Assembly (NCBI GenBank): GCA_014360805.1
Contig: JACIWU010000012.1
Span: 1 to 57,634, forward strand
Reading direction: 5' to 3'
Length of the DNA stretch: 57,634 nt
DNA from: Chloroflexota bacterium
GTDB taxonomy: Bacteria > Chloroflexota > Anaerolineae > DTLA01
In this document: positions 2,971 to 51,427 of the stretch, piece by piece
Numbering within the stretch: position 1 is the first letter of the stretch
Layout of the letters: each line of letters begins with the position of its first letter
Notes under the pieces: generated by a model
The model's input: only the letters and a program-made list of their open reading frames with translations
Told to the model about the DNA's origin: nothing
The model's database searches: none
Made by a program: the position numbers and the translations under genes

Positions 2971-4359
2971 ATGGCCGACAAGAGCGCACCGGAAGAACGT
3001 TTGCGCCGACTTCCCAGCGTGGACCGCCTGCTCCAGACGCCGGAAGGACAGGAGTGGGCCGCGGCGTTCGGCCACGACCTGGCCGCCGAAGCCATACGCG
3101 AGGCCGTGGGCGAAGCGCGCAGCCGCGTGCTGGCGGGGGAGGATGTGCCCTCCCTGGCCGATGTCCTGACGTTGGCGCAGGCGCGGCTAGAAGCCCTGGT
3201 TACGCCGACGCTGCGGCGCGCCATCAATGCCACGGGCGTCATCATCCACACGAACCTGGGCCGCGCACCGTTGAGCCAGGCCGCGCGCGAGGCGATGGAA
3301 CTGGCGGCGCGAGGGTACACGAACCTGGAGTTTGACCTGGAGGCCGGCGTGCGCGGCTCTCGGTACGTCCATGCCGTCAACCTGCTCAAACGGCTGACCG
3401 GAGCCGAAGACGCGCTGGTGGTCAACAATAACGCCGGCGCAGTGCTGCTGGCGCTGAGCACGCTGGCCGCGGGGCGGGAGGTGGTCATCTCGCGCGGCCA
3501 ACTGGTGGAAATCGGCGGGGGCTTCCGCATCCCCGACGTGATGCGGCAGAGCGGCGCGCGCCTGATGGAGGTCGGCACCACCAACCGCACCGCGCTGAAG
3601 GACTACGCGGCAGCCATCTCGGCGGAGACGGTCTTGCTCCTTCGCGTCCACACCAGCAACTTCCGCATCATCGGGTTCACGCACCAGCCCGGCCTGGACG
3701 AACTGGTGGAATTGGCGCGCAGCCGCGGCTTGCTCGTCATGGATGACCTGGGCAGCGGCACATTGCTGGACACAGCCCAATTCGGCCTGGCGCACGAGCC
3801 GATGGTGCAGGAGAGCCTCGCGGCGGGGGCGGATGTGGTAACCTTTAGCGGCGACAAACTGCTGGGAGGGCCGCAGGCGGGCTACATCGTCGGCAGGAGA
3901 GAACTCGTCGCCCGTATGCGGACGCACCCCCTCACCCGCGCCTTGCGCGTGGACAAGGTGGCCATCGCCGGCATTGAGGCCACCCTGCGGCACTACCTGC
4001 TGGGCGAGGCCACCCGCGAGATTCCCGTCTGGCGCATGATCTCAACGCCTGCCGACGCGCTCCGCAAACGGGCGCGCGCCTGGGCGCGGCGACTGGCAAC
4101 CGCCGGCGTGGAGGCTGCCGTAATCCCCGGACAGTCCACCGTCGGGGGCGGCTCCCTCCCCGGCGAGACGCTCCCCACGTGGCTGCTGGCCCTGACGGTG
4201 CCCTCGCCCGATGCGTTCGCGCGCGCGCTCCGCATGGGCAGGCCTGCCATCGTGCCGCGCATTGAGGAAGACCGCCTGCTGTTTGACCCGCGCACCGTGC
4301 TGCCCGACGAGGATGCGGCACTGCTGAAGGGCATTCTCGCGGCGGCTGGCGTCGCTTAG
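2971..4359 (+). CDS. selA: L-seryl-tRNA(Sec) selenium transferase (selenocysteine synthase)
   Basis: A 462-residue cytoplasmic PLP enzyme that converts seryl-tRNA(Sec) to selenocysteyl-tRNA(Sec) using selenophosphate. It has the SelA N-terminal helical domain (LRRLPSVDRLL), the INATGVIIHTNLGRAPLS segment, the glycine-rich EIGGGFRIPDV segment, and SGDKLLGGPQAG with the PLP-binding lysine at about residue 295. The C-terminal VGGGSLPGETLPTW block is also characteristic. Length matches E. coli SelA (463). The ATG at 2971 follows a GGACGGAGGG site. No selB, selD or tRNA(Sec) gene lies in the window. Its presence implies UGA recoding in this organism, which fits the two UGA-interrupted genes at 4370-5326 and 38212-39612. 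Confidence 0.95.
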   Translation: MADKSAPEERLRRLPSVDRLLQTPEGQEWAAAFGHDLAAEAIREAVGEARSRVLAGEDVPSLADVLTLAQARLEALVTPTLRRAINATGVIIHTNLGRAPLSQAAREAMELAARGYTNLEFDLEAGVRGSRYVHAVNLLKRLTGAEDALVVNNNAGAVLLALSTLAAGREVVISRGQLVEIGGGFRIPDVMRQSGARLMEVGTTNRTALKDYAAAISAETVLLLRVHTSNFRIIGFTHQPGLDELVELARSRGLLVMDDLGSGTLLDTAQFGLAHEPMVQESLAAGADVVTFSGDKLLGGPQAGYIVGRRELVARMRTHPLTRALRVDKVAIAGIEATLRHYLLGEATREIPVWRMISTPADALRKRARAWARRLATAGVEAAVIPGQSTVGGGSLPGETLPTWLLALTVPSPDAFARALRMGRPAIVPRIEEDRLLFDPRTVLPDEDAALLKGILAAAGVA

Positions 4360-36933: not shown

Positions 36934-38043
36934 ATGCGGAACAAGATTCTGTCTCTACTGATCGCAGTGTCCCTCTTGGCCATCGCCGTATCTCCCGTCT
37001 TCGCCGAAGGCCCCAGCGGCGACTTTGAAGTCATCCGCGCGGCCGCAGAGAAGTACCTCACCACCGTCAAGTCGCCCGTCATCACCGCCGACGCGCTGTT
37101 CACGCTGCTCAACGACGGCGACGCCAGCAACGACCCGTTCATCGTCAGCGTGCGCTCTCCCGAGCATTACGCGCTTGGCCACATTCCCGGCGCTATCAAC
37201 ATCCCCTACAAGACTATCGCCAAGCCCGAGAACCTGGCCAAACTGCCCAAGGACAAGCAGATCGTGGTGTACTGCTACACCGGCCACACCGGGCAGATCG
37301 CGACCACCATCCTGAACCTGCTGGGCTACAACGCTGTCAACCTCAAGTTCGGGATCATGGGCTGGACGAAGAACGACACCGTCTTGGCACTCAAGCGCTT
37401 TGGCCCCGACACCGACCAGCGCGACTATTCGCTGGAGACCACGGTCAATGAAGCGACGGCCACCTATCCGTATCCGACCGTGTCCACGGGCGCGACCGGC
37501 GACTTTGAGATCATTCGCACCGCCGCCGACGAGTGGCTGAACACCGCCAAGGCTCCCATCGTAAGCGCCGACTCCATCTTTGAGAACCTGAACGACGGCG
37601 ACGCGAGCAACGACCCGGTCATCGTGTCCGTGCGGACGGCGGAGCACTACGCCCTGGGCCACGTCCCCGGTGCCATCAACATCCCGTGGAAGGAAATCGC
37701 CAAGCCCGAGAACCTGGCCAAGTTGCCCCCCGACAAGCGCATTGTGGCCTACTGCTACACCGGCCACACTGGCATGGTCGCGGCGACGATCCTGGGTCTC
37801 CTGGGCTACGACGCGGGCAACATCAAGTACGGCATGATGGGCTGGACCAAGGACGACAAGGTCCTCGCGCAGCCAAGGTACGATGTCAACACCGCGCCCG
37901 ATTACCCGGTTGAAGGCACCGCCGCTCCCACCACACTGCCCGTTACCGGTGGGGAGACTGACCTCACCTGGGTCGTGCTGGTGGCCGGCATCGCCGCCCT
38001 GTTCGCGGGCAGCGCCCTGTACGCAAGGCGAGCGACCCGCTAG
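36934..38043 (+). CDS. Exported tandem rhodanese-domain protein with LPVTG tail
   Basis: 369 residues. A signal peptide (1-24, ends VFAEG) precedes two highly similar rhodanese domains (about 45-150 and 205-310). Each has an intact active-site cysteine loop CYTGHTG (Cys114 and Cys274), unlike many tandem rhodaneses in which one domain is dead. The shared LNDGDASNDP and AEHYALGHVPGAINIP segments show a recent duplication. The C-terminus has LPVTG (335-339), a hydrophobic helix and RRATR, a sortase-type cell-wall sorting signal. No sortase is in the window. Sulfur transfer or polysulfide binding outside the cell is suggested. It precedes the multiheme cytochrome. Confidence 0.88.
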   Translation: MRNKILSLLIAVSLLAIAVSPVFAEGPSGDFEVIRAAAEKYLTTVKSPVITADALFTLLNDGDASNDPFIVSVRSPEHYALGHIPGAINIPYKTIAKPENLAKLPKDKQIVVYCYTGHTGQIATTILNLLGYNAVNLKFGIMGWTKNDTVLALKRFGPDTDQRDYSLETTVNEATATYPYPTVSTGATGDFEIIRTAADEWLNTAKAPIVSADSIFENLNDGDASNDPVIVSVRTAEHYALGHVPGAINIPWKEIAKPENLAKLPPDKRIVAYCYTGHTGMVAATILGLLGYDAGNIKYGMMGWTKDDKVLAQPRYDVNTAPDYPVEGTAAPTTLPVTGGETDLTWVVLVAGIAALFAGSALYARRATR

Positions 38044-38098: not shown

Positions 38099-38138
38099 AG
38101 GGCTTCGGGAGTCCGCTCCGAACGACTCCCGAAGCCCT
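38099..38138 (+). terminator. Terminator-like hairpin between rhodanese and cytochrome genes
   Basis: AGGGCTTCGGGAGT (38099-38112) pairs perfectly with ACTCCCGAAGCCCT (38125-38138), with a 12-base loop. TGTAGTGCTTTTC follows, with only a short T run. It may give partial read-through to the cytochrome gene, for which I see no strong own promoter. Confidence 0.7.
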
Positions 38139-38211: not shown

Positions 38212-39612
38212 ATGAGAACCCGGACCATTGCCTGGGTGGTGGGTCTGATCGGGATCACGGTGCTGATCCTGGCGGCCTGTGGAGCCGCGGCGACGCCTAC
38301 GCCGACCACAGCGCCCACAAAAGCACCGCCGACCAACACGCCGGTCCCACCACCTACCAACACGCCGGCGCCCACAGATACCCCGGTCCCCCCGACACCC
38401 ACGCCCATCCCGAGCGCCGATAACTGCGTGGCGTGTCATACCAGCGCCGAGACCCTCCAGAAACTCGCCGAAACCAAGAAGACCGGCTCCGCCGAAACCG
38501 AAGGGGAAGGCTGAGCGGGCGAGTTGCCTCCGTTGGAGGCATGGGAGAAGGTCTTCATCGGCAGCGACACCTTCCTCAAAGACGTCCATAACACGCCCAA
38601 CTGCATCGGCTGCCACGGCGGCCAGCCCGACACCGATGACAAGGCGTCGGCCCACCAGGGCGTCGTGCGCGACCCGTCCGCCGACAAGGGCGGCGTCTGC
38701 GCCAACTGCCACGGCGAAATCGCCAAGACCTCGGCGACTTCGCTGCACTACACCATCAACGGCTACTACACGATCCTGGGCCAGCGCGGGTTTGACTTCA
38801 ATGACCCGAAGAAGGCCGAAATCTTTGACCGGCACTGCACCAGTTGCCACGCTACCTGCGGCCAGTGCCACATCTCCCGGCCCACTTCAGCCGACGGCGG
38901 GCTCGTCAAGGAGCACCAGGTCAAGAGCATCGTCTCGCTCAGCGACACGTGCCTGGGCTGCCACGGCGGGCGCGTCGGCCCTGAATTCATGGGCAAGAAC
39001 CCAGGCATCCCTGGCGATGTCCACTGGACCAAGGGCGTCAACTGCTTCAAGTGCCACAACATGACCCAGTTCCACGGCGACGGCACCCAGTACGCCCATC
39101 GGTACGATGGCAAGCCGGCGCCCTCGTGCCTGGATTGCCACCCGGACGCGGCCCCCGGCAAGGGCCAGGTCATGCAGCACAACATCCACGGCGACAAACT
39201 GGACTGCCGCGTGTGCCACTCGGCAGGCGCGTACAAGTCCTGTTGGAACTGCCACGTGGGGCTGGACAAAGAAGGGCTGCCCTACCGCAAACTGGATCCG
39301 TCGGTTTTGACGTTCAAGATCGGCAAGAACCCGAACCCGACGCCCGACCGCCCATGGGAGTATGTCCTGGTGCGGCACATCCCGGTGCCCGCCGACATCT
39401 TCGGATACTACGGCGACAACATGCTCCCGAACTGGGCCTCGGTACCCACCTGGAAGTACGCCACCGTGCACAACATCCAGAAGATCACGCCGCAGAACAA
39501 GGATTGCAAGAACTGCCACGGCCATCCGGAACTGTTCCTGACGGAAAAGGACGTGGACCCGGCCGAACTGGAAGCCAACCGCGCCGTGATCGTTACGGAG
39601 ATCCCGAAGTAG
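38212..39612 (+). CDS. Predicted selenocysteine-containing 11-heme c-type cytochrome lipoprotein; in-frame UGA at 38512-38514
   Basis: 466 residues if UGA is read as selenocysteine (residue 101). ATG 38212 follows GGAGGTGG. The lipobox is ILAAC (Cys23), then a long Thr/Pro linker. Eleven CxxCH heme motifs occur: CVACH before the UGA and CIGCH, CANCH, CTSCH, CGQCH, CLGCH, CFKCH, CLDCH, CRVCH, CWNCH and CKNCH after it. Frame is kept across the UGA, GEG-Sec-AGELPPLEAWEKV, and no ribosome binding site or ATG lies just after it, so the two parts need each other: the first has the export signal, the second most hemes. A hairpin typical of bSECIS follows at once. An extracytoplasmic electron-transfer or reductase role is inferred, in line with the adjacent rhodanese and the divergent ccm operon. 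Gene callers would report two genes. Confidence 0.85.
38525..38541 (+). promoter_or_regulatory. Candidate bSECIS hairpin for UGA at 38512-38514
   Basis: TGCCTCC (38525-38531), loop GTT (38532-38534), GGAGGCA (38535-38541): a perfect 7-bp stem. Seventeen bases separate the UGA from the loop, and the loop starts with GU, the same as in the hairpin at 5107-5127. Confidence 0.75.
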
Positions 39613-39711: not shown

Positions 39712-39750
39712 ACAAAGTGCGACGCACCTCCGAGGTGCGTCGCACTTTGT
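39712..39750. terminator. Perfect 19-bp inverted repeat between convergent cytochrome and copA genes (GTGCGACGCAC family, copy 2)
   Basis: ACAAAGTGCGACGCACCTC (39712-39730) and GAGGTGCGTCGCACTTTGT (39732-39750) flank a single central base. It is symmetrical, so it could stop transcription from both sides. Confidence 0.8.
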
Positions 39751-39768: not shown

Positions 39769-42165
39769 TTACGTCTCCCGCACCTTGAACCCCCGCAGGC
39801 GCAGCGAGTTCGTTACCACGAAAACAGAACTCATCGCCATAGCGCCTGCCGCCAGCATGGGGTTCAGGAACCCGGCGGCTGCCGCCGGAATCAGAATCGT
39901 GTTGTAGAAGAACGCCCAGAACAGGTTCTGCTTGATGGTGCGCATGGTGCCTCTGGACAGCGCCACCGCCCGCGCCACGCCCCGCAGGTCCCCGCTCATC
40001 AGCGTGATGTCGGCGGCCTCCATGGCGATGTCGGTGCCGGTGCCGATGGCGATGCCCACATCGGCCTGGGCCAGCGCAGGCGCGTCGTTGATACCGTCGC
40101 CCACCATGGCCACCACGCGCCCCTCGTCTTGCAGGCGCTTCACCTCCAGCGCCTTGTCCTGGGGCAGCACCTCGGCCAGCACGCGGTCTATGCCCACGAG
40201 CGCCGCAATGGCTTGCGCCGTGCGCCGATTGTCGCCGGTGATCATCGCCACTTCCAGGCCCAGGTCGTGCAACATGCGCACGCCTTCGGCCGAGCCTGGC
40301 TTGACCGTGTCGGCCACGGCCACGACGCCGACAGCCGAATCCCCGACGGCCACCGCCAGCGTCGTCTTGGCCTCCCCTTGCAACCGCTCCACTTCCCGGT
40401 GCAGCCCGTTCAGCCGCACGCCGTTCTCCTCCATGAGTTTCAGCGTGCCGAGCAGGACGCGCTTCCCGTCCACCCGTCCGACCACGCCCTTGCCGCCGAT
40501 GGCCTGGAAATCCGAAACCGCCGCAAGGGGCAATTGCCGCTCGCGCGCCGCCTGCACAATGGCCTCGCCGATGGGATGCTCGGACCCCTGCTCCACCGAC
40601 GCCGCCAGTCGTAGTACTTCGGCCTCCTCGCCATCCAGGGCCACTACATCCGTAACCGACGGCTTCCCTTCGGTGATGGTGCCGGTCTTGTCCAGCACGA
40701 CCACATCCACGTCGCCGGTGCGTTCCAGACTCTCGCTGCTCTTGATGAGGATGCCGTTCTCGGCGCCCTTGCCGGTGCCCACCATGATGGCCGTGGGCGT
40801 GGCAAGGCCCAAGGCGCACGGGCACGCGATCACCAGCACCGCTACCATGTTCAGCAGCGAGCGGGTGAACCCCGCGTCGCCGATGAAGTACCAGCCCAGG
40901 AATGTGAGCACGGCGATGCCGATCACCACCGGCACGAAGACCGCTGACACGCGGTCCGCCAGCCGCTGGATGGGCGCCTTGGAACCCTGCGCCTGCTCCA
41001 CCAGGCGGACGATTTGCGCCAGGACCGTCCCCTTGCCCACCTGCGTCGCCTGGAACTTGAGCAGGCCCTGCTTGTTGACCGTGGCGCCCACCACGGGCGA
41101 CCCCGGCCCCTTCTCCACGGGCAGGCTCTCGCCCGTGAGCATGGACTCGTCCACGGCCGACTGCCCCTCCACCACGACGCCGTCCACGGGGATGCGTTCG
41201 CCCGGCCGCACGACGACCAGGTCGCCCACGCGCACCTCGCCGACCGGCACTTCTACCTCGGCGCCATCGCGGATGACCCGCGCCGTCTTCGGCGCCAGGC
41301 CCATGAGCCGCTTGATGGCCTCGGACGTGCGGCCCTTGGCCCGCGCCTCCAGGTACTTGCCCAGGATGATGAGCGTGATGATCACCGCAGCGGTGTCGTA
41401 GTACAAGGGGCCCTTGATGAAGAACGTGCTGGCCACGCTGTACAGGAACGCCGCCGACGACCCCATGGCGATGAGCACATCCATGTTGGCCGAGCCTGCG
41501 CGCAGGGCCTTGTACCCCCCGCGGTAGAACTGCCACCCGATGACGAACTGCACCGGGACGGTCAGCGCCAGCAATAGGTAGGGCCGCCAAGCGAAGTCGG
41601 GGATCAGCCCGCCGTCCACGCCCATGCTAAAGATGGAGATGATGAGGCTCAGCGCCACGCCCGCGATGAGTTTGCGCCGCTGGGAGCGAATTTCCCGCTC
41701 GCGCGCGGCACGCTCGGCGTCCTCCACCTCTTCGCCCGCGCCCGCCTCCACGACTTCGTAGCCCACGTCCACGATGGCCCGCTTGATGTCGGCCAGGGTT
41801 AACGCCGTGGGGATGTATTCCACCGTGGCGCGCTCGTTGGCCAGGTTCACGTTGGCCTCCACCACGCCGTCCAGTTTGCGCAGCGCCCGCTCTATGGTCA
41901 GCGCGCAGTTGGCGCACGTCATGCCGCGGATGGGCAGTTCCGCCTTCGCCGTCGTCGCGTGATAGCCCAGGACGTCAATGGTCGCGACGACCCGCTTCTC
42001 GTCCACCACAGACGGATCGTATTCCAGCGTTACGCGTTCGGCCGCGAAGTTCACGGTGGCGCTGTGGACGCCCTCCATCTTCTTCAGCCCGCGCTCTATG
42101 GTCAGCGCGCAGTTGGCGCACGTCATCCCTGTTACGGGGATGGTCAGTTGCTTCTTCTCGGGCAT
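39769..42165 (-). CDS. copA: Copper-exporting P1B-type ATPase CopA
   Basis: 798 residues. Two N-terminal heavy-metal-binding domains (GMTCANC at 13-19 and 81-87) precede eight membrane helices. The transport site is CPC in [13 protein letters not shown], the phosphorylation motif is [11 protein letters not shown], the ATP-binding His-Pro is in EHPIGEAIV, and the hinge is [16 protein letters not shown]. These features specify the Cu+ subgroup. It exports Cu+ from the cytoplasm. It is preceded by copZ and csoR on the same strand, with a palindromic repeat in the 116-base gap before it. Confidence 0.96.
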
Positions 42166-49800: not shown

Positions 49801-50149
49801 CCTGCACCTCCTTGCTTTGTGTGAAATACGCCTTTTGAGAGTAGGTTTGTTTTGTTTTCCGTAAGCCTATCATAGCACAAGAGGCGTTTTGGCGCAAGTG
49901 GCGCAGAGGACTTGACACGCGCGTGCCCGGTGTGTTGTCGTCTGCGACCGGGGGAGCGCGGAGAGCGTAGAGCAGGTTTCCATGCCTGACCTCTGCCTTG
50001 GGCGGCTATGGAAAGCCGCTCTGCGTGTCTTGGCATTACACCACCTACGCCGCCGTCCGGCACGCAGGCGGTCGGGGCGCATCTGTCGGGCAGGGGCGGC
50101 GGGTAGGGGAATCCGCCCCACGGGTCTGGGATGTGCGGGCAAGCAGCCA
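49801..50149. other. Divergent intergenic region with a minus-strand promoter and an interspersed element
   Basis: No gene is seen. A minus-strand promoter for the superoxide reductase is near 49872-49900 (TTGCGC, 17 bp, TATGAT). The element at 49972-50020 follows, then GC-rich sequence with no recognised structure up to the MFS promoter at 50150. Confidence 0.6.
49972..50020. repeat. Interspersed element, copy 2
   Basis: It contains GCAGGTTTCCATGCCTGACC, CTCTGCCTTGGG and CGGCTATGGAAAGCCGC. It aligns with the reverse complement of 23668-23717. A fragment may be at 10-32. Confidence 0.75.
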
Positions 50150-50178
50150 TTGACAACGTGTGCAGCGCCGTGTATACT
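50150..50178 (+). promoter_or_regulatory. Promoter of the MFS transporter gene, giving a near-leaderless mRNA
   Basis: TTGACA (50150-50155), a 17-bp spacer and TATACT (50173-50178). The ATG is at 50186, where transcription should begin, and there is no Shine-Dalgarno sequence. Confidence 0.8.
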
Positions 50179-50185
50179 TGCGACC

Positions 50186-51427
50186 ATGAGGGTGCGCGGA
50201 ACGATCACGGCGAACTGGAAGTGGAACCTGGCTGCCGCCTGGGTGGCGCAATTCCTGTGCATTGTTGGGTTTAACGCGGCCTTCCCGTTTATGCCCTTTT
50301 ACATCCGCGACCTGGGCGTGTCGGACCCTGATCAGGTGAAACTGTGGACAGGGATGATTGCGTCGGCCGGGCCGATCTCCATGGCGCTGGTGTCGCCCAT
50401 CTGGGGTGTGCTGGCTGACCGCCGCGGCCGGAAACTCATGGTGGAGCGGGCCACCTTTGGCGGGGCGGTTATCCTCGCGCTTATGGCCTTCGCGGGCAAC
50501 GTGCAGCAACTGTTCCTGCTCCGCCTCATTCAAGGCACGCTGACCGGCACGATACCGGCGTTCATCACGCTGGTGGCCTCGTTTGCGCCCGCGTCCGAGG
50601 CGGGGTTTGCCCTGGGGATGATGCAAATGGCAGTGTTCAGCGGGGCGTCGGTGGGGCCGCTCATCGGCGGGCTGGTTGCCGACCGGTTCGGGTACCGCTG
50701 GGCGTTCATGGTTACCGGCGCGGTGCTGCTGATTGCGGGGTTTCTCGTGTACCTCTTCGTGCGCGAGGGGTACACGCCACCCAAGGAGCGCCCGGCTAAC
50801 TCGGGGCTGGTAGCAGGTGCGCGAACGGTGCTCCACTCCGCGCCGGTGCTGGCGGCGGTGGTTGCGCTCGGCGGGGTGTACATGGCCAATCAGGCGTCGC
50901 GTCCTCTCCTGCCGTTGCTGGTGGAGATGCTCCAGCCCGATCCCACCACGGTGAACACTGTAGTGGGCTTCACCTACGGGGCCAACGCCGTTGCCGGCGC
51001 CATCTCCGCTGCGGTGATTGGGCGCATCTCCGACAAGGTGGGCCATCGGGCCATGCTGGCGGTGTGCGCGCTGGCGGCGGCACTGGCCTATGTGGGCCAA
51101 GCGTTGGCGCCCAGCGCGAGCGCGCTCATCGGCATCGCCTTTGCCACCGGCCTGTTCGCTGGCGGGCTGACGCCCGTGGCCAACGCCATCCTTGCCGGCA
51201 CGGTACCCCGAGAACAACAGGGCGCGGTCTATGGCCTCAGCACTTCCGTGAATGCCGCCGGCAGGGCGCTCGGCCCGATGATCGGCGCTGCGGTGGCGAC
51301 CAGCCTTGGGCTGCGGGCATCCTTTGCCACGACGGGGGGACTGCTGGCGCTGGTGGCGGTGTGGGTCATCGCGGCCAGCACAAAGGGCCAGAACAGCGCG
51401 GCCCCGTCGGGCAAGACAGAGGGATGA
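50186..51427 (+). CDS. Major facilitator superfamily transporter
   Basis: 413 residues, twelve helices. The MFS loop motif GxLADRxGRK is present in the first half as GVLADRRGRKLM, and a weaker equivalent in the second half as GRISDKVGHR. The drug-efflux-like motif C region reads GASVGPLIGGLVADRFGYRW, which suggests a proton-driven multidrug or metabolite exporter of the DHA1 type. The substrate is unknown. The ATG at 50186 is the only sensible start given the promoter at 50150-50178. It is convergent with the ABC operon. Confidence 0.88.
   Translation: MRVRGTITANWKWNLAAAWVAQFLCIVGFNAAFPFMPFYIRDLGVSDPDQVKLWTGMIASAGPISMALVSPIWGVLADRRGRKLMVERATFGGAVILALMAFAGNVQQLFLLRLIQGTLTGTIPAFITLVASFAPASEAGFALGMMQMAVFSGASVGPLIGGLVADRFGYRWAFMVTGAVLLIAGFLVYLFVREGYTPPKERPANSGLVAGARTVLHSAPVLAAVVALGGVYMANQASRPLLPLLVEMLQPDPTTVNTVVGFTYGANAVAGAISAAVIGRISDKVGHRAMLAVCALAAALAYVGQALAPSASALIGIAFATGLFAGGLTPVANAILAGTVPREQQGAVYGLSTSVNAAGRALGPMIGAAVATSLGLRASFATTGGLLALVAVWVIAASTKGQNSAAPSGKTEG

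Follow-up and report, generated by a model that had tools for sequence, protein, structure and literature searches.

An 11-heme c-type cytochrome of a Chloroflexota bacterium is encoded by a gene with an in-frame UGA codon, and this codon is almost certainly decoded as selenocysteine (Sec) by SelB under the guidance of a hairpin. The inference is drawn from sequences, and biochemical evidence is absent. Comparison of homologues shows that, in Sec-competent genomes, selection maintains the UGA as a coding codon along with its SECIS. The predicted cytochrome represents a new family of selenoproteins, although proteins of this kind had been known once or twice before. With a rhodanese encoded beside it, the protein probably acts as a Sec-dependent extracytoplasmic oxidoreductase on sulfane sulfur or another chalcogen; both the substrate and the interaction are inferred. 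The gene lies in a window of 57,634 nucleotides (contig JACIWU010000012.1, the whole stretch analysed here), whose relevant features are collected in Table 1.

The cytochrome gene is a single frame whose sole in-frame stop is the UGA. The predicted product begins with a signal peptide and lipobox (LAAC), followed by a Pro/Thr-rich linker, the motif CVACH, the segment GEG-U-AGELPPLEAWEK and ten more CxxCH motifs, so that one heme motif precedes Sec-101 and ten follow it. This layout had been recognized in a preliminary description of the window, and the frame, the 11 motifs and the export signals are all present as described there. The protein matches c3/c7-type multiheme domains (Pfam), and eight public homologues could be aligned with it over most or all of its length. 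An AlphaFold model with nine homologues as input was unusable (pLDDT 38.5), and sequence searches against solved structures returned only weak heme-motif matches (best E 0.0013). Convergent with the cytochrome gene is a gene for a heavy-metal P-type ATPase with two HMA domains (39769-42165, minus strand); related ATPases are encoded close to the cytochrome gene in several relatives (cluster c5).

Table 1. Location of the features discussed in the text, with the basis for each assignment
Feature	Position	Strand	Basis
selA, L-seryl-tRNA(Sec) selenium transferase	3001..4329	+	TIGR00474, 577 bits, over cut-off
Exported double-rhodanese protein, directly upstream of the cytochrome	36934..38043	+	Pfam PF00581, two stretches; sequence; relatives
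Inverted repeat of 13 bp separating the rhodanese and cytochrome genes; perhaps a terminator or attenuator (function inferred)	38100..38137	+	sequence
11-heme c-type cytochrome lipoprotein, 466 aa, predicted Sec at residue 101	38212..39612	+	11 CxxCH motifs; homologues
First heme motif CVACH, 25 residues N-terminal of Sec	38425..38439	+	invariant C72, C75, H76 in alignment A1
In-frame UGA read as selenocysteine (predicted), motif GEG-U-[A/G]G	38512..38514	+	UGA at same column in 47/53 distinct homologues, no Cys
bSECIS hairpin TGCCTCC-GTT-GGAGGCA, 7 bp, loop GUU, -10.7 kcal/mol	38525..38541	+	published model, covariation, synonymous shuffles
18-bp palindrome 3′ of the cytochrome gene; perhaps a terminator that serves both of the convergent genes (function inferred)	39713..39749	.	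sequence

The UGA is kept across a broad set of relatives. In a scan of one genome per species, eight relatives with 38-94% identity carried TGA at the identical place. A profile built from these eight found matches in 80 of the 396 genomes of the class, with an in-frame TGA in 68. Outside the class, two further genomes among 400 sampled from the phylum contributed three copies, each with one TGA; sampling of the family outside Chloroflexota was poor. Among 59 aligned copies (53 distinct), 53 (47 distinct) have the UGA codon, and in these 47 both the frame and the residues are conserved through the site. No homologue ends there; homologues that did so would have refuted the Sec reading. One criterion for a selenoprotein, an in-frame UGA with homology on both sides that is kept across relatives, is thus met. 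Cys homologues are a usual but not obligatory further criterion, and here the expectation that an alignment at residue 101 would yield both Sec and Cys was only half borne out: UGA is retained, and Cys occurs in none of the 53 distinct homologues. The six non-UGA copies instead carry TGG, TTG, GTG, GTG, CAC or TTT (W, L, V, V, H and F) and read continuously as single proteins. By the tree, UGA was lost in at least four separate events, to Trp, Leu, Val and His/Phe.

This distribution bears on two other accounts of the codon. The window comes from a fragmented assembly (154 contigs), which leaves room for a sequencing error or a strain-specific nonsense mutation. However, independent assemblies of the same genus (L009, L010, G001 and G040), including two public MAGs that other studies produced, have the identical TGA, which excludes a sequencing error, and an in-frame TGA recurs in 68 genomes of the class; the account is refuted for all practical purposes. 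Alternatively, the UGA could be read as another amino acid, by a near-cognate tRNA for Trp or similar, or through an altered genetic code, and the homologue with TGG at the site (G062) would be consistent with this. That copy still has the hairpin and its two congeners have TGA, so its loss of UGA was probably recent. The remaining replacements are Leu, Val, His and Phe, an MFS gene in the same window (49982-51427) terminates in TGA as a true stop, all parts of the Sec machinery are encoded in the genome, and the hairpin conforms to the bSECIS model. Decoding as anything other than Sec can hence be given very little credence.

One further copy, L012 (SHMX01000014.1), comes from a bin labelled Thorarchaeota, and its Sec cytochrome gene is accompanied by a bacterial SECIS. 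The idea of an archaeal selenoprotein was dismissed, because L012 clusters in the tree with a sequence from Chloroflexota (100/99) and its SECIS is bacterial; the contig was probably mis-binned, to judge from these affinities.

Directly after the UGA lies the hairpin that would steer SelB and Sec-tRNA(Sec) to decode it. The published bSECIS model calls for a loop of 3-9 nt with a G in its first two positions, a stem of 4-16 bp, a distance of 16-37 nt from the UGA and an energy of at most -7.5 (PMC13188914). The window hairpin, a perfect 7-bp stem (38525-38531/38535-38541) closed by the loop GUU (38532-38534), meets all four constraints; it begins 10 nt after the UGA, with 17 nt from the UGA to the loop, exactly as first described. 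The model also fits 46 of the 47 UGA copies, as against 212 of 4987 control positions (4.3%) in the same genes. When codons were shuffled synonymously, with the protein kept, the real UGA copies paired at 6.64 of 7 positions versus a null mean of 4.28 (highest of 200 null means, 4.64), and their hairpin energy was -10.6 versus -3.2 kcal/mol. In a set of 40 distinct sequences, 93.9% of cells are paired versus 42-55% in slid controls, and 15 cells are changed on both sides versus 3.0 in shuffles; the covariation score is 0.225 versus 0.072 in shuffles. Compensatory changes include TGCC/GGCA, TGGC/GCCA, TACC/GGTA and CTCC/GGAG to CTCA/TGAG, and the TGGC/GCCA change also alters the protein, from PPLEAW to APLEPW. 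As read from their sequences, L013 (CCCGCGCU-GGA-AGCGUGGG) and L016 have the hairpin displaced by three bases. The element is gone from five of the six non-UGA copies, the TGG copy being the exception. Folding of the single window sequence against dinucleotide shuffles was not significant (z -0.55); the hairpin alone is unremarkable by this measure, and the evidence for a SECIS is comparative. Neither this z-score nor the absence of an Rfam family covering the hairpin is surprising, as both are expected for a short coding hairpin.

The same comparisons weigh on the possibility that the UGA is a genuine stop, which would leave either a one-heme lipoprotein and a separate ten-heme protein end to end, or a pseudogene. 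A TTG codon at 38524 could serve as a start, and in 28 of the 47 copies some in-frame start no more than 40 codons from the UGA is accompanied by an SD-like stretch. The original argument that no start with a ribosome binding site follows the UGA is thus weak in general and has been dropped. Even so, no start is conserved at a fixed position: the TTG reads GTC, TTA, GTA, CTG, CCG or CTA in 12 of the 47 copies. Moreover, the protein is conserved right through the UGA, the ten-heme part would lack the signal peptide required for heme attachment, the non-UGA copies form one continuous protein, and the SECIS hairpin is kept with the UGA. Termination at this site is therefore highly improbable.

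A UGA followed by such a SECIS in a Sec-competent genome is decoded as Sec by SelB, and the genome is competent by all counts. The preliminary description had placed selA in the window, where it was recovered, and had taken a lack of Sec machinery in the complete genome as grounds for refutation. Instead, selA (577 bits), selB (343), selD (373) and a tRNA-Sec (69.9 bits, anticodon tca) were all found above cut-off, and selD itself has an in-frame UGA, in ASCAG-U-AGK. Together with the retention of UGA and SECIS in homologues, this complete set supports the selenocysteine reading. Class-wide, 315 of 396 genomes have a selA above the cut-off: 63 of the 68 with the UGA cytochrome versus 252 of the 328 others (p 0.003; presence counted by hand). 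In four of the five UGA genomes without selA, a tRNA-Sec was found. Genomes with non-UGA copies also keep the machinery: every one has tRNA-Sec, and selA is missing only from G107. Loss of the UGA is thus not merely loss of the Sec trait.

The main clue to function, of which the earlier reading made no mention, is the adjacent rhodanese gene. Both rhodanese domains have an intact-looking loop, CYTGHTG, and the C-terminus (LPVTG, a hydrophobic stretch and a basic tail, RRATR) forms a sortase-type anchor; two sortases are encoded in the genome. A wall-anchored, exposed sulfurtransferase would be unusual. The inverted repeats on either side of the cytochrome gene are both strong; the one between the two genes, if it is a terminator, would split their transcription. 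A profile of neighbouring rhodaneses found a same-strand rhodanese next to 43 distinct UGA copies, upstream or downstream and mostly within 500 nt; one at 1.3 kb from the UGA copy in G260 is a further case. In L012, rhodanese and Sec cytochrome are fused in one open frame. In several families (L102, L097, L098 and others), the exported rhodanese next to the cytochrome has roughly double the length (550-640 aa), that of L102 having four rhodanese domains and a Cys-rich N-terminal stretch.

A rhodanese gene adjoins 44 of 46 UGA copies versus none of five non-UGA copies, the latter inspected in stretches of 8-18 kb (Fisher p 9e-6). Copies cut by contig ends were left out of this test; the count was made by hand and is uncorrected for relatedness, with about four independent losses behind it. 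The UGA copies without a nearby rhodanese are L015, for which only a limited stretch was available, and one of the two copies in G405. In G260 a single cluster holds two copies (G260:C10, L067 / L126), whose codons at the site are UGA and TTT (Phe); the rhodanese is closer to the UGA copy, and the Phe copy is located a few kilobases upstream. Where the rhodanese is absent, the residue has changed to W, L, V, H or F but in no case to Cys. This suggests that Sec has a role linked to the rhodanese, and one that a thiol cannot simply take over.

From these observations a most likely mechanism can be inferred. The cytochrome would be exported as a lipoprotein, with Sec-101 in the GEGU(A/G)G segment between hemes 1 and 2, and would pair functionally with the exported rhodanese; their co-occurrence is observed, their interaction inferred. 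Thiosulfate or polysulfide would supply the rhodanese with sulfane sulfur, or with a selenium analogue, which it would present as a persulfide and which the Sec selenolate would take over. The heme chain would then carry electrons to or from the Sec-bound sulfur, in reduction to sulfide or in oxidation; the direction is not shown. In several relatives the nearby genes include those for a 4Fe-4S protein, an NrfD-type quinone protein, cytochrome b and additional multiheme proteins, and in some the heme chain is probably joined to the quinone pool through the 4Fe-4S/NrfD pair or cytochrome b. No such pair was seen next to the cytochrome gene in the window. Rhodanese folds also serve other roles. 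The proposal as a whole lacks proteomic, selenium-labelling or activity data, and the substrate and electron direction remain inferences.

The substrate is where the most serious alternative lies. The same Sec protein could act on a selenium or tellurium oxyanion, in detoxification or respiration, rather than on sulfur, as proposed for ExtKL of Geobacter. ExtKL, which also has an exported rhodanese in its cluster, has been connected with the reduction of selenite, and mutation of extI impairs reduction of both selenite and tellurite (PMC5877670, PMC6148476). However, the curated model places the window cytochrome outside the ExtKL family, the wide occurrence across the class is easier to reconcile with a common substrate than with a rare one, and the neighbourhoods contain general NrfD/4Fe-4S/cytochrome b electron-transfer genes. 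An oxyanion substrate is thus possible but unlikely.

Standard gene calling breaks each such gene at the UGA, leaving a stub with one heme and a ten-heme fragment that lacks a signal peptide, so the enzyme is easily overlooked despite its presence in roughly a sixth of the sampled class. Searches for Cys/Sec pairs would also miss the family, as no Cys form was found. If the link to the rhodanese is functional, Sec would have been recruited for electron transfer involving sulfur (or selenium) at the surface in a large group of mostly uncultured bacteria. The natural copies that lack both UGA and rhodanese are ready-made controls.

The novelty of the family rests on several searches. NCBIfam 20.0 has no model that covers it over cut-off, no paper describing it was found in the literature that was searched, and neither of the known Sec-containing multiheme models matches it. 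A 2026 inventory of 119 selenoprotein families includes both of these, ExtKL and a Sec form of the octaheme TIGR04315 (PMC13188914). The octaheme tetrathionate reductase family TIGR04315 likewise consists of multiheme c-type cytochromes, and at least one GenBank-annotated record includes Sec (PMC13188914). Membership was rejected because only one of nine members of the window family matches the model (E 0.031) and the window protein has 11 hemes, not eight. Weak profile similarity to DmsE/MtrA-type decaheme cytochromes (36 bits vs a cut-off of 192) and to ExtM/ExtN (35 vs 200) lies in the CxxCH-rich part and is far below those cut-offs. We know of no Sec proteins in either group. Pairs of 4Fe-4S and NrfD proteins serve other respiratory sulfur-compound reductases. 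The pairs near several relatives, though not beside the window gene, resemble these PsrBC/SirCD-type quinone modules, but their presumed catalytic partner is the Sec multiheme cytochrome instead of a molybdoenzyme.

The closest precedent is ExtKL (GSU2937-2936, NF040886, Geobacteraceae), which overturns the initial statement that no Sec-containing multiheme cytochrome had been described. It emerged in 2007 as a TGA-containing cytochrome candidate (PMC1914089), was later handled as a selenoprotein of Cytc-like type with a link to the reduction of selenite (PMC5877670) and was noted again in 2018 (PMC6148476); its cluster includes the exported rhodanese ExtH (PMC1914089, PMC5877670, PMC6148476). 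Membership of the window gene in this family was rejected. NF040886 does not match it, gives no match to nine members of the window family at E up to 1, and exceeds its curated 250-bit cut-off in none of 120 genomes. The genome that the window belongs to does contain an ExtKL-like match (G000:C11:41134-41856, 80 bits), but this is another cytochrome, without UGA, which we take to be c554-like. A scan of the immediate neighbours in the window, without a dedicated search, revealed no ExtI porin or cytochrome of the ExtM/N type.

Both systems combine a predicted Sec multiheme c-type cytochrome with an exported rhodanese. They differ in that ExtKL has five hemes before Sec and none described after, whereas the window family has one before and ten after, and in that ExtKL is described from Geobacter and related deltaproteobacteria while the window family is found mainly in Chloroflexota. 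The broadest proposal, for which we judge the chances to be even, is that these cytochromes constitute a new and widespread class of Sec-dependent respiratory multiheme enzymes, mainly in Chloroflexota (Anaerolineae-type). In this class a catalytic Sec would exchange sulfane sulfur with a surface rhodanese and be wired to eleven hemes, being needed only while the rhodanese is present and never replaced by Cys. ExtKL would then exemplify the same chemistry, either independently or as a very distant case. Should the rhodanese link prove functional, the parallel with ExtKL/ExtH makes a general rule testable, in which a Sec multiheme cytochrome goes together with an exported rhodanese.
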